From: an uncultured Nitrospira sp.
GTDB lineage: Bacteria > Nitrospirota > Nitrospiria > Nitrospirales > Nitrospiraceae
DNA length: 64,000 bases
Direction of reading: 5' to 3'
Assembly: GCA_902500825.1 (NCBI GenBank)
Contig: CABVRX010000004.1
Coordinates: 124,001-188,000, forward strand
Shown: positions 59,536 through 63,888 of the stretch, piece by piece
Layout of the letters: each line of letters opens with the position of its first letter
Position numbering within the stretch: position 1 is the first letter of the stretch
Program-made: the position numbers and the translations under genes
Notes under the pieces: model-generated
Seen by the model: the letters and a program-made list of their open reading frames with translations, nothing else
Told to the model about the DNA's origin: nothing
Database searches by the model: none

Positions 59536-59931
59536 TCACACTCCTTCACTTCGATAGAGATACTGCAGCAGCGCCACCAAACCGTACAGTGGCGATTCGA
59601 CAACCGGATGCTGATAGAGCGGGACGACGGCGCCTGATTCGTTGTCTTTCACTTGGTTGATGACCTGTTGGATTTGTTTCTCTCGGACATCATGGTTTGT
59701 CCCGATACCCAAAGTCTGGACGATTTGCCGATTGAGCCCGGCGAGCATCGCCGCTTTTGCCTGACTGGCGGATTGATAGAGAAGGAAGGCCCCGAGGAGA
59801 GCTACCAGCACGTTCACCGGCCAAGTGAACAAAAACAGGAGTGGGTAATTCCAGATGTCGAAATACTCGTTGCGCGCCGCGATCATAATCAAGAGCGCGA
59901 TGAATGGGTACCAGATCAGTCGATTGGCCAC
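59536..59931 (-). CDS. Membrane protein, probably cut off from its N-terminus by a frameshift
   Basis: A 131-aa protein with two membrane segments (LIWYPFIALLIMIAA and FLFTWPVNVLVALLGAFLLY) and a soluble tail. The only start in frame is GTG at 59931. Upstream codons in that frame read LAQRTEV and join naturally to the 59951-60040 fragment if one base is removed near 59950. The function is unknown. It heads the hydrolase operon. Confidence 0.65.
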   Translation of the reverse strand: MANRLIWYPFIALLIMIAARNEYFDIWNYPLLFLFTWPVNVLVALLGAFLLYQSASQAKAAMLAGLNRQIVQTLGIGTNHDVREKQIQQVINQVKDNESGAVVPLYQHPVVESPLYGLVALLQYLYRSEGV

Positions 59932-60040: not shown

Positions 60041-60105
60041 GTACGTCCCTATTCTTTGCGATCAACCGACTGGATCGGCCATCGCCACTCTACAACAGAC
60101 GGCGA

Positions 60106-60135
60106 GGGGGACTGCAAGCATGCTTGCAGTCCCCC
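60106..60135. terminator. Perfect 30-bp palindrome after the sugar dehydrogenase gene
   Basis: GGGGGACTGCAAGCA is followed immediately by its exact complement. It lies 22 bases after the stop of the dehydrogenase gene and upstream of the membrane protein gene. It can form a strong hairpin in either direction, but no T-run follows. Confidence 0.55.
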
Positions 60136-60157: not shown

Positions 60158-62371
60158 TTAATGTGGGACGACGCGATAGATCCCGTTGCTGCTGGACACG
60201 TAGACATATCCATCTGCGCCGAGCATGAGGCTAAGTAGGAGGCCCTCGCCACCGTTGTAGGCGATGCTGGAGGTCCCGAGCTGGGTGAGATTTGGACCAC
60301 TCAACACGACACGACGGATCATGCCGTCGTTAAAATCGACGAAGAGCAGATTGTTGCGATAGGCAGCCGGGTAGACAGTCGAGTCCTCCGGAATCGCGAC
60401 GATTCCGGTCGGTGCAATAGTCGGCGTGTAGGATAGGATCGGGTCGATGAAGTTCGGATTGCCCGCGATACCCCGAACGGTCGGCCAACCGTAGTTGCCG
60501 CCCGCCACGATCCGGTTGATTTCGTCGCTGTCGCCGGGTCCATTCTCAGTTTGCCAGAGTTGGCCCGTATGGCCGTGGAAGGTAAAGCCATAGCTGTTCC
60601 TAATGCCGAGCGCGTACACTTTTTTGGCATTGGCATTGGCGTCGGCGGCGAACGGATTGTCCGATGGAGGAGTCCCGTCCGGATTCAGGCGCAAAATCTT
60701 CCCTGCCAGCGAGGTGAGCGACTGGGAATTGGCGGTGTTGTCCGTGTCTCCGGTAATGATGTAGAGCTTGCCGTCCGGACCGAATTGGATAATACCGGCA
60801 TTGTGGATGCTGCTCGAAGGAATGTCGTCGAGAATGACCGTCTCGCTACCCTGTACACACTGCCCGCTTGATTCCGTGTAACGGACGACGCGATTTTTCG
60901 GACCGCTGGCCGTGTAATAAACATAGACGAAGTGGTTGCTCGCAAAGTTCGGATCGAGTGTGAGCCCGAGCAATCCCTGTTCGTTGCCTGCGAGCACCGT
61001 GAGCTGGCAGAAGGGAGTGCTCACCAATTGCCATTGTTGGTTGATGATTCGAATGGCGCCGGTGAGGCGCTCGTTGAAGAAGATACGGCCATCGGGCGCC
61101 AGCGACATCCCCACGGGGAAGTTGAGCCCGGGCAGCGCCGATTGCAGCTGTAGATCGCCGCTCGGCGGCTGGCTGACCGTGATGTTCAACGTCTTCGTCG
61201 CCTCAGCATTTGTGAGCTCGGTGTGGTTTGCATCCGCCAAGATCACTCGAACGTCATGAGCGGTGGACGAAAGGCCGAAAATCTCGAACGATCTGCCCGT
61301 CTTCCAATGGGCGAAGTGAGTGTGGGCGTTGTTGTATTGGACTCCGTTGTCTTCATTGATCCCTGCCCCGTCGTAGAACATGTAGGGTACGGGATCGTTA
61401 TCGAGATAGAAGTGCAAGTGCGTTTGTCCCGATGTGCCCATCGCAAAGAATTGGGTCGTGAACGAGACGGTGACCGGCCCGACCGGGACTGTTGCATTCG
61501 GTGCCGGACTGACAATCGTGACCGTCGGCTGGTTGCTCGAAGGCACCGCCACGGAGAACATCACGGTCTTCGTCGCGTCAGCATTCATCAGTTCCGTGTC
61601 GGACGGATCGGCCAAGACCAACCGAACTTGGTGCGTGCCGACTGCCAGCGCAGGAAAGCTGATCTGCGTATCGCTCTGCCACTGGGCATTGTCCGCCGCT
61701 GACAATCGGTAGAGCACCTGGCCTGGAGATCCGGCATAGAAGTGATAGGGAATAGGGTCGCTGTCCAGATAGGCGTGGACGTGCGCCTGGTTGATAGGGC
61801 CGACCGTGAAATTCTGCGTGTCAAACGTGATCGTGACCGGTCCGTTCGGCAACATGACATTGTTCACCGGGCTGCTGATCGTCACGCCGGGGGTCACAAC
61901 CGGAGGGGATGCATTGTTGGCCGGACCAGGTGTCACGCCCATCGGCGGGGTTTCCGGTGTCGCCTGAGTGCCCGCTGTCGTCACGTGACCAAGCTCGATC
62001 GCGGTCGGTGTGTTGATGGAGAAGACATTGCTGATTGGATTCCCGAAGTACATTGGATACACATTGCCGCCCGTGAGGAAGAAGATTCTGAGGTTCGTGT
62101 CGGTCGGGAGGTTTCGAAGCTGCCAGCTGATCTGCCCCTGTGCATTCGGCATGCGTCCAGTCGTGTCCTCTTCCGCAACGATCTGATCGCTGCTGTTGAC
62201 TGCAACGATGCGGGTGCCGGAGACCGTCCCGCTCATCGACGCGGTGGGCTGCGCCGTCGGCGCGGTCCCTTCGCTGTCGCCGCTCTGCGAACAGGCCGCA
62301 AGCAAGACGCCAAGTGCGAGGAAGCCGAATGTGCAGACAACCGACCGTAAAGATCGTCCCATCATGGTCAC
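60158..62371 (-). CDS. Lipoprotein with two His-rich repeats and a PQQ-type sugar dehydrogenase beta-propeller
   Basis: A 737-aa protein with a lipobox (GVLLAACSQ, Cys near residue 27). After a beta-sandwich region come two repeats of about 115 residues, each with a HxH and YLDxDPxPYxFY motif (AHVHAYLDSDPIPYHFY and THLHFYLDNDPVPYMFY). The last ~320 residues form a glucose/sorbosone dehydrogenase-like propeller (GLLGLTLDPNF, IQFGPDGKLYI, ALGIRNSYGFTFH, DEINRIVAGGNYGWP). I prefer the GTG at 62371, eight bases after AGGAGG, over the ATG at 62365. It is 26 bases after selO. Confidence 0.82.
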   Translation of the reverse strand: MTMMGRSLRSVVCTFGFLALGVLLAACSQSGDSEGTAPTAQPTASMSGTVSGTRIVAVNSSDQIVAEEDTTGRMPNAQGQISWQLRNLPTDTNLRIFFLTGGNVYPMYFGNPISNVFSINTPTAIELGHVTTAGTQATPETPPMGVTPGPANNASPPVVTPGVTISSPVNNVMLPNGPVTITFDTQNFTVGPINQAHVHAYLDSDPIPYHFYAGSPGQVLYRLSAADNAQWQSDTQISFPALAVGTHQVRLVLADPSDTELMNADATKTVMFSVAVPSSNQPTVTIVSPAPNATVPVGPVTVSFTTQFFAMGTSGQTHLHFYLDNDPVPYMFYDGAGINEDNGVQYNNAHTHFAHWKTGRSFEIFGLSSTAHDVRVILADANHTELTNAEATKTLNITVSQPPSGDLQLQSALPGLNFPVGMSLAPDGRIFFNERLTGAIRIINQQWQLVSTPFCQLTVLAGNEQGLLGLTLDPNFASNHFVYVYYTASGPKNRVVRYTESSGQCVQGSETVILDDIPSSSIHNAGIIQFGPDGKLYIITGDTDNTANSQSLTSLAGKILRLNPDGTPPSDNPFAADANANAKKVYALGIRNSYGFTFHGHTGQLWQTENGPGDSDEINRIVAGGNYGWPTVRGIAGNPNFIDPILSYTPTIAPTGIVAIPEDSTVYPAAYRNNLLFVDFNDGMIRRVVLSGPNLTQLGTSSIAYNGGEGLLLSLMLGADGYVYVSSSNGIYRVVPH

Positions 62372-62397
62372 GGAATAATCCTCCTGAACAGGGTTCG

Positions 62398-63888
62398 CTA
62401 AGATGAGCAACTGACAGCTATATGCTTGCCCCAGTTCGGCGGCGGCAGAGCATAGGTGTTCATACCCGGCTGCTCCGCGAAAGGGTCTTGCAGCAACGTG
62501 AAGAGCCGGTTGATTTCGGAGAAGTCCTTGTCCTGTGCCTTCTCAATAGCCGTCTGAGCAAAATAGTTTCGCAGTACATACCTGGGATTCACACGACTCA
62601 TACGGTCACGCCGCTCATCGTCACGACTGTGCTCACTCCGCAGTCGATCCCGATAACGCACCGCCCAGTCGTTGAAACGGTCACGATTGAGGAAGTGTTC
62701 ACGCAGCTTTTCGTTGAGTGCGCTGTCGGCCGTGGAGAACGCGCTCAACTCCCTCAACACAATCGTATAATCCGCATGGCTTCCCTGGAGAAGGCCCAGG
62801 AAGTCGCGAACGAGGCCGTCGTCTTCCGCTCGCTCCTCCGCCAATCCGAACTTCGCCCGCATACGCCTTAAATACTCCCGCTCAAACAATGGTTGATAGG
62901 TATCCAGACCCGCCTTTAGCGCCTCCTTTTCCGCCAACGGCAACAGAGCTTGTGCCAAGCAGCTCAGATTCCAGAGACCGATGTAGGGCTGTTGGTTGAA
63001 GGCATAGCGGCCATTGTGATCCGAGTGATTGCAGATGAACCCCGCGTCGTAGTCGTCCATGAAACCATACGGTCCATAGTCCAGCGTCAGGCCCAGAATC
63101 GACATGTTATCGGTGTTCATCACCCCGTGCGCCCAGCCGACGGCCTGCCACTGAGCGATCAGCGTCACGGTGCGCTCGACCACTTCGGTAAAGAACCGGA
63201 CGTACCTTTCTTCGACATCGCGAAGATGCGGGAAATGCTGCTCGATCACATAGTCTGCCAGCGTTTTCAGATGCTCATGTTGCTTCCGATAATAGAACAC
63301 TTCGAACGTGCCGAAGCGGACATGGGAGGGCGCCATACGGACCAGCATCGCGCCGGTTTCGATCTGCTCGCGGTACACCTTGTCGTCGCTGCCCACCAAA
63401 CAAAGCGCCTGCGTGGTTGGAATCCCAAGACCCCGCATCGCGGCGCAACAGAGATATTCGCGGATCGTCGAGCGCAGCACCGCCCGACCGTCCCCATCGC
63501 GTGAAAACGGGGTCATGCCTGCGCCTTTGAGATGCAAGTCCCATCGCTCTCCCCGCTCGTTCTTCACCTCGCCGAGGAGAATGGCCCGTCCATCGCCAAG
63601 TTGCGGCACGTAGACGCCGAACTGATGACCGGAATACAGCATGGCAAGGGGCTCCATCCCTGTCGCCAACGCACTCCCGCCGAAGAGAGCCGCGAATTCG
63701 GATCGTCCAAATTGATCCGGATCGAGATCGATCAGCTGGGCTGCTGCCGGATTGGCGTGAATCAAGTAGGGCGGGGTACTAAACGGAGTCGGGTTCAACC
63801 GCGCGTAAAAGGCTTGAGGAAGACGAGCATAGGTATTGTCGAAGCAGAGCGTTTCCAAGGTGTGTCGAGTCATAGTTCTCTGTAACAT
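62398..63888 (-). CDS. selO: SelO / YdiU protein adenylyltransferase, Cys form
   Basis: A 496-aa pseudokinase-fold enzyme that transfers AMP to protein hydroxyls. It shows PLAMLYSGHQFGVYVPQLGDGRA, DLHLKGAGMTPFSRDGDGRAVLRSTIREYL, AHGVMNTDNMSILGLTLDYGPYGFMD and NWGKHIAVSCSS at the end. Animal SELENOO has selenocysteine at the position of this penultimate-region Cys (C494). Here it is an ordinary Cys codon. Two Met residues (1 and 6) are possible starts. It may be co-transcribed with the sugar dehydrogenase gene downstream. Confidence 0.95.
   Translation of the reverse strand: MLQRTMTRHTLETLCFDNTYARLPQAFYARLNPTPFSTPPYLIHANPAAAQLIDLDPDQFGRSEFAALFGGSALATGMEPLAMLYSGHQFGVYVPQLGDGRAILLGEVKNERGERWDLHLKGAGMTPFSRDGDGRAVLRSTIREYLCCAAMRGLGIPTTQALCLVGSDDKVYREQIETGAMLVRMAPSHVRFGTFEVFYYRKQHEHLKTLADYVIEQHFPHLRDVEERYVRFFTEVVERTVTLIAQWQAVGWAHGVMNTDNMSILGLTLDYGPYGFMDDYDAGFICNHSDHNGRYAFNQQPYIGLWNLSCLAQALLPLAEKEALKAGLDTYQPLFEREYLRRMRAKFGLAEERAEDDGLVRDFLGLLQGSHADYTIVLRELSAFSTADSALNEKLREHFLNRDRFNDWAVRYRDRLRSEHSRDDERRDRMSRVNPRYVLRNYFAQTAIEKAQDKDFSEINRLFTLLQDPFAEQPGMNTYALPPPNWGKHIAVSCSS

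Follow-up and report, generated by a model that had tools for sequence, protein, structure and literature searches.

Towards the end of the window, as we call the whole stretch of 64,000 nucleotides that was analysed, lies a gene for a lipoprotein in which an N-terminal beta domain is followed by two repeats and by a six-bladed propeller of the GSDH family. The gene, its parts and the neighbouring selO gene, all on the minus strand, are the following:

60158..62371 (-), lipoprotein gene, 737 aa, GTG start at 62371, stop at 60158-60160 (open reading frame and sequence inspection)
62291..62371 (-), signal peptide and lipobox LLAAC, residues 1-27, Cys27 (sequence)
61952..62248 (-), N-terminal beta domain, residues 42-140 (no Pfam match; full-length model)
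61541..61891 (-), Repeat 1, residues 161-277, DUF4399-like, without the second His cluster (repeat comparison and profile)
61736..61783 (-), HVHAYLDSDPIPYHFY of Repeat 1, residues 197-212 (sequence, repeat alignment)
61166..61531 (-), Repeat 2, residues 281-402, Ig-like fold, DUF4399-like, full His set (profile, model, hhalign)
61373..61420 (-), HLHFYLDNDPVPYMFY of Repeat 2, residues 318-333 (sequence, repeat alignment)
61304..61324 (-), HTHFAHW cluster, residues 350-356, confined to the propeller-adjacent repeat (repeat profile tally)
60164..61153 (-), GSDH-family six-bladed propeller, residues 407-736 (PF07995 E 4.4e-64; 3a9g_A Z 32.8)
60803..60805 (-), H523, equivalent of the sGDH catalytic His144, kept (alignments)
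60596..60601 (-), R591-N592, equivalent of Arg228-Asn229, kept (alignments)
60521..60541 (-), GPGDSDE calcium-type loop, residues 611-617, kept (alignments)
60329..60331 (-), N681 at the Lys377 position, cation lost (alignment tally)
60233..60241 (-), L711-L713 at the Arg406/Arg408 positions, cations lost (alignment tally)
62398..63888 (-), selO (PF02696 E 4.5e-146), 26 bp upstream of the lipoprotein gene, same strand

The GTG at 62371 is well placed as a start, since an AGGAGG motif lies 8 nt ahead of it, at 62380-62385. An earlier note on this DNA described the product as a lipoprotein, and we find the signal peptide followed by a lipobox, LLAAC, that ends in Cys27, a residue invariant in 7/7 rows of an alignment of relatives; lipidation is predicted. 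The open reading frame, the lipobox and both His motifs exist as that note described them. The protein, a lipoprotein of the cell surface or the periplasm, is specific to the Nitrospira lineage, and its host genome, from the Nitrospira family, measures 3.79 Mb and is 99.78% complete. Just downstream of the gene, at 60105-60135, is a near-perfect palindrome, either terminator-like or a repeat element.

Sequence, repeat profile and the PF07995 match agree on the central proposition of the note, which saw two His-motif repeats joined to a GSDH-type propeller. A Pfam search with the 737 residues returns GSDH over residues 417-729 (E 4.4e-64), a short match to Big_7 and DUF4399 just below its cut-off, and finds no domain match in the N-terminal 159 residues. 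Structure prediction, a check proposed in the note, recovers beta domains and a six-bladed propeller: the full-length model, built from an alignment of 7 sequences, has three beta domains and the propeller, with a mean pLDDT of 69.8 and a pTM of 0.45, and is poor in the pocket and linker regions. The architecture was also said to look uncharacterised, and among the titles of the literature searched, none describes a propeller-repeat lipoprotein. The combination is real and lineage-specific, and it is probably functional.

The motif that gave rise to the note, HxH with YLDxDPxPYxFY, is present in each repeat exactly as written: HVHAYLDSDPIPYHFY in Repeat 1 and HLHFYLDNDPVPYMFY in Repeat 2. The repeats do not arise by chance, since they are 43% identical over 126 columns and each of the relatives scanned with the repeat profile has 1-3 copies, the full ones with E-values of 1e-30 to 1e-61. 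Proteins with one, two or three copies number 7, 10 and 3 among the intact relatives, window protein included, to which one split gene must be added. That the two repeats are equivalent is ruled out: Repeat 1 has no second His cluster, and within the window protein HTHFAHW is present in Repeat 2 alone, a difference that the note had missed. Over the fusion family, H350, H352, H355 and W356 (HTHxxHW) are found in 21/21 propeller-adjacent repeats, and the three His of this motif in 0/17 upstream repeats, totals in which the single repeat of L007 was counted by hand as propeller-adjacent, disregarding a spurious match at E 0.9. The residues H318, H320, D324 and H372 are kept in 20, 17, 20 and 20 of the 21 propeller-adjacent repeats. 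We infer that each protein has a single functional site, next to the propeller. The repeats may plausibly bind a metal, mainly the propeller-adjacent one. Modelled alone from 15 sequences, Repeat 2 takes an Ig-like fold with a pLDDT of 95.0 and a pTM of 0.88. No function can be deduced from this fold, because the rows of the fold search are only generic Ig-like ones, the best being an antibody (Z 10.0, rmsd 3.0, 106 aligned).

The repeats are related to the family DUF4399 (PF14347). When 15 fusion repeats are compared with an alignment of 7 of nine genuine DUF4399 proteins, hhalign gives a probability of 93.8 and an E-value of 1.7e-7 over 104 columns across the domain, and three features are in register: HxHxxxD, the second pair of His and the closing GD/AD..H. 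The layout in common comprises HxHxxxD, the second His pair and (K/A)H...(G/A)DxxH, whereas both HTHxxHW and a YMFY stretch are confined to the fusions. The fusion repeats also stay below the Pfam gathering cut-off (25.9 against 28 bits, and 22.1 for Repeat 2 alone), and the genuine members seen here, in contrast, are small, stand-alone and of exported type; they exceed the cut-off in 8/395 Nitrospirota genomes. Because of the profile homology and the aligned His motifs, the motif of the note is taken to form the opening half of a DUF4399-like domain that has diverged.

The propeller passes the GSDH cut-off of PF07995 with 217.3 bits against 25, and fails that of NCBIfam TIGR03606, the glucose/sorbosone PQQ dehydrogenases, with 132.2 bits against 434.55. 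It aligns with 3a9g_A at Z 32.8 and rmsd 2.8 over 308 residues (VIA-align). The PQQ aldose sugar dehydrogenases and sGDH (2ISM, 3A9G, 3DAS, 1C9U; Z 30.8-32.8) have in common with it the six-bladed fold, the catalytic His, the Arg-Asn and the calcium-type loop, but the window protein lacks their clamping Lys/Arg/Arg, carries three extra N-terminal beta domains and is a lipoprotein. We take Arg621 of CcPDH to correspond to Arg406 of sGDH, and the places of Lys377, Arg406 and Arg408 within the sGDH sequence are likewise assumed, the columns being supplied by our alignments. PMC6881810 and PMC6881789 name the sGDH residues His144, Arg228, Asn229, Lys377 and Arg408, and state that Arg430 and Arg621 of CcPDH are conserved in both sGDH and Asd. 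Of the clamp cations, Lys377 pairs with the C-7 carboxylate of PQQ, and Arg406 and Arg408 likewise contact its carboxylates.

In the fusion propellers, the catalytic His is kept in 21/21, and Arg and Asn in 20/21 each. Both G611 and E617 are found in 21/21, the former as a main-chain calcium-site Gly and the latter as a structural-calcium Glu, roles assigned by analogy with PMC6881810. The Arg406-type column contains Arg in 0/21 fusions against 11/11 controls; the Arg408 column has it in 0/21 fusions, 7/7 sGDH/Asd-type controls and 0/4 PqqC-linked paralogs; and the Lys377 column is cationic in 0/21 fusions, with Arg in 5/7 sGDH/Asd-type controls. The controls are 2 solved structures, the 4 PqqC-linked paralogs and 5 plasmid-borne relatives. 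These propeller counts leave out L001, a duplicate of the window, L008, whose record is that of L035, and, of the split gene L013, the half with repeats only; the long paralog of L058 stands outside them, and in the clamp tally the external rows L070 and L094 have no usable reading frame and L091 is partial. The two paralogs in the host genome, L002 and L003, both have the His and the Arg-Asn, with changed clamp positions.

The note's claim of a PQQ-type sugar dehydrogenase, which it tied to PQQ- or calcium-binding residues in the propeller, therefore divides in two: on one side stand the fold and the retained residues (catalytic His, Arg-Asn, calcium-type Gly and Glu), on the other a PQQ carboxylate clamp (Lys377/Arg406/Arg408) that is non-cationic in 21/21. 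What the sequence supports is the GSDH fold, and the label of PQQ sugar dehydrogenase is unsupported because the clamp cations are lost and no PqqC is detected in the host genome. The AA12 residues of the CcPDH type, Arg621 and His560..Trp563-Asn564, are also absent from the window protein. By contrast with the fusions, four PqqC-linked GSDH paralogs (L044-L047) all have H-GSWN and GRP. They resemble fungal AA12 (CcPDH), and some relatives of Nitrospira likely have a genuine PQQ enzyme in these paralogs.

The PqqC profile search, for which positives in sister genomes serve as control, exceeds its cut-off in 15/98 genomes of the family: 6/16 carriers of a fusion propeller and 9/82 others, the 16 carriers being our reading of the homologue listing. 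The fusions of these 6 PqqC-bearing genomes likewise lack the PQQ clamp. A PQQ-free lifestyle of all carriers, suggested by the draw over the phylum, is ruled out by the 6/16. PqqE was dropped as a marker of PQQ synthesis: it matched in all 14 controls, none above cut-off. Missing synthesis is in any case weak evidence, since E. coli, which makes no PQQ, is said in PMC6881789 to draw it from the environment.

In a tree of 47 propellers, those of the fusions form one clade of 22 rows with support 98/93, and the sGDH/Asd-like rows stand apart from it with support 97/88. Nested in the fusion clade is SOLO_L095, from genome G033, a lipoprotein with the propeller and without the repeats, for which a secondary loss of the repeats would be the simplest explanation. 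Strong purifying selection on the propeller is supported: its dN/dS is 0.055-0.115 over six pairs, dS being saturated or high in several, and it is the lowest of the four domains in 4/6 pairs. The repeat itself occurs in 6/148 genomes of the phylum draw, a genome search that covered Nitrospirota, and only inside this fusion family; a search of plasmids and phages with the repeats gave no match. Some copies have a history of their own. A tandem paralog with three repeats lies between selO and the two-repeat gene at L034:2938-5508 and L036:2216-4858, L013 is split into two frames in G073, L019 is a fragment with an internal TAG in G056, and L005 has a Gly/Met-rich run-on at its C-terminus in G037.

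The selO gene is directly upstream, on the same strand, in 13/16 assessable loci out of 17 distinct ones: L048, L051 and L055 have no selO upstream, and L058 is cut by a contig end. In the window, the two genes are probably co-transcribed. SelO is an AMPylase family, according to PMC12663964, and a functional link between it and the lipoprotein would be speculation. Further downstream, at 59536-59931 (-), an open reading frame of 131 aa matches, in frame and at 73-76%, the C-terminal end of a protein of about 1080 aa in L033, L034 and L036, of which the L033 copy has no Pfam match; the window frame looks like a remnant of that gene.

With the architecture, the residue losses, the single propeller clade, the purifying selection and the selO linkage established, we give about an even chance to the following reading: a propeller that no longer uses PQQ has been joined to a probable metal-binding domain. 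The protein would be exported and lipid-anchored in the Nitrospiraceae, and would extend outward from its N-terminal beta domain through one to three DUF4399-like Ig domains to a calcium-type propeller. Since only the propeller-adjacent repeat keeps the full His set, this domain would bind a transition metal, Cu or Zn, and the upstream copies would be spacers. The propeller, presumably of common ancestry with PQQ sugar dehydrogenases, would no longer hold PQQ in the normal way; the old pocket might now bind or transform another small ligand, with the adjacent His domain as its metal or ligand partner. Several observations weigh against this reading. Some active-site function may persist, given the catalytic His kept in 21/21 and the Arg-Asn in 20/21 each; with PqqC in 6/16 against 9/82, the carriers taken together cannot be called PQQ-poor; only 17/21 propeller-adjacent repeats have H320; and CcPDH depends on PQQ although several of the sGDH residues are missing from it (PMC4133262).

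In an alternative that we consider unlikely, the protein is still a PQQ-dependent dehydrogenase: it would hold PQQ through different residues, obtain it from neighbours that make it, and use the His repeats for electron transfer or binding. This alternative would account for the kept His, Arg-Asn and calcium-type residues, for the closest solved chains being PQQ sugar dehydrogenases and for the PqqC of 6/16 carriers, and CcPDH illustrates how a PQQ site may vary (PMC4133262, PMC6881789). However, the Arg that sGDH, Asd and CcPDH (Arg621) all keep is lost in 21/21 fusions, including those of PqqC-bearing genomes, the CcPDH substitute H..WN is absent from the fusions and present in the PqqC-linked paralogs, and no PqqC is detected in the host genome. 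It is doubtful, too, that the whole protein is a non-catalytic binding scaffold like human HHIP, its His cluster being structural or binding zinc for stability. HHIP chains match the window propeller at Z 28.5-30.1, and the GSDH-type propeller of HHIP serves protein binding. Propellers of HHIP and HHIP-like proteins have the catalytic His together with altered PQQ residues, and HHIP is said in PMC4133262 to conserve the catalytic His without the PQQ residues. The paralogs L002 and L003, too, combine the kept His and Arg-Asn with altered clamp positions. HHIP is eukaryotic, however, with other domains and only about 25% identity; the very strong constraint on the propeller and its kept Arg-Asn are also expected of an enzyme, and no partner is known.

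Very improbable, in our judgement, is a new metalloenzyme in which the neighbouring domain docks its His cluster over the former PQQ pocket, so that a Cu or Zn centre takes the place of PQQ. The cluster is found strictly in the repeat beside the propeller, and within one clade it coincides with the loss of the PQQ clamp. There is also an independent precedent in DrSOD, where, according to PMC12362111, an Ig-like metal domain, Cu/Zn-SOD, is joined to a six-bladed calcium propeller; that protein differs in both families, its propeller being a lactonase (SGL), and it gives only a weak Foldseek row against the window protein. But the domain-domain model is unreliable (pTM 0.45), stand-alone DUF4399 proteins have similar His pairs without any propeller, and the clade member SOLO_L095 has a propeller without repeats. 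Such an arrangement, if true, would give Nitrospira a two-domain metalloenzyme of a new kind on its cell surface.

Automatic annotation names such propellers PQQ sugar dehydrogenases, as it does for some plasmid relatives, and so invites the conclusion that nitrifiers oxidise sugars; the residue evidence argues against it here. The most useful testable claim is metal binding by the propeller-adjacent domain. The position-specific His cluster gives a testable metal-binding hypothesis for DUF4399 as well, a family for which the listing of literature consulted yields no function. The small stand-alone protein of exported type at L097:557-916 (-), which contains HAHVYLDG, may be a relative of the repeats with a single domain.
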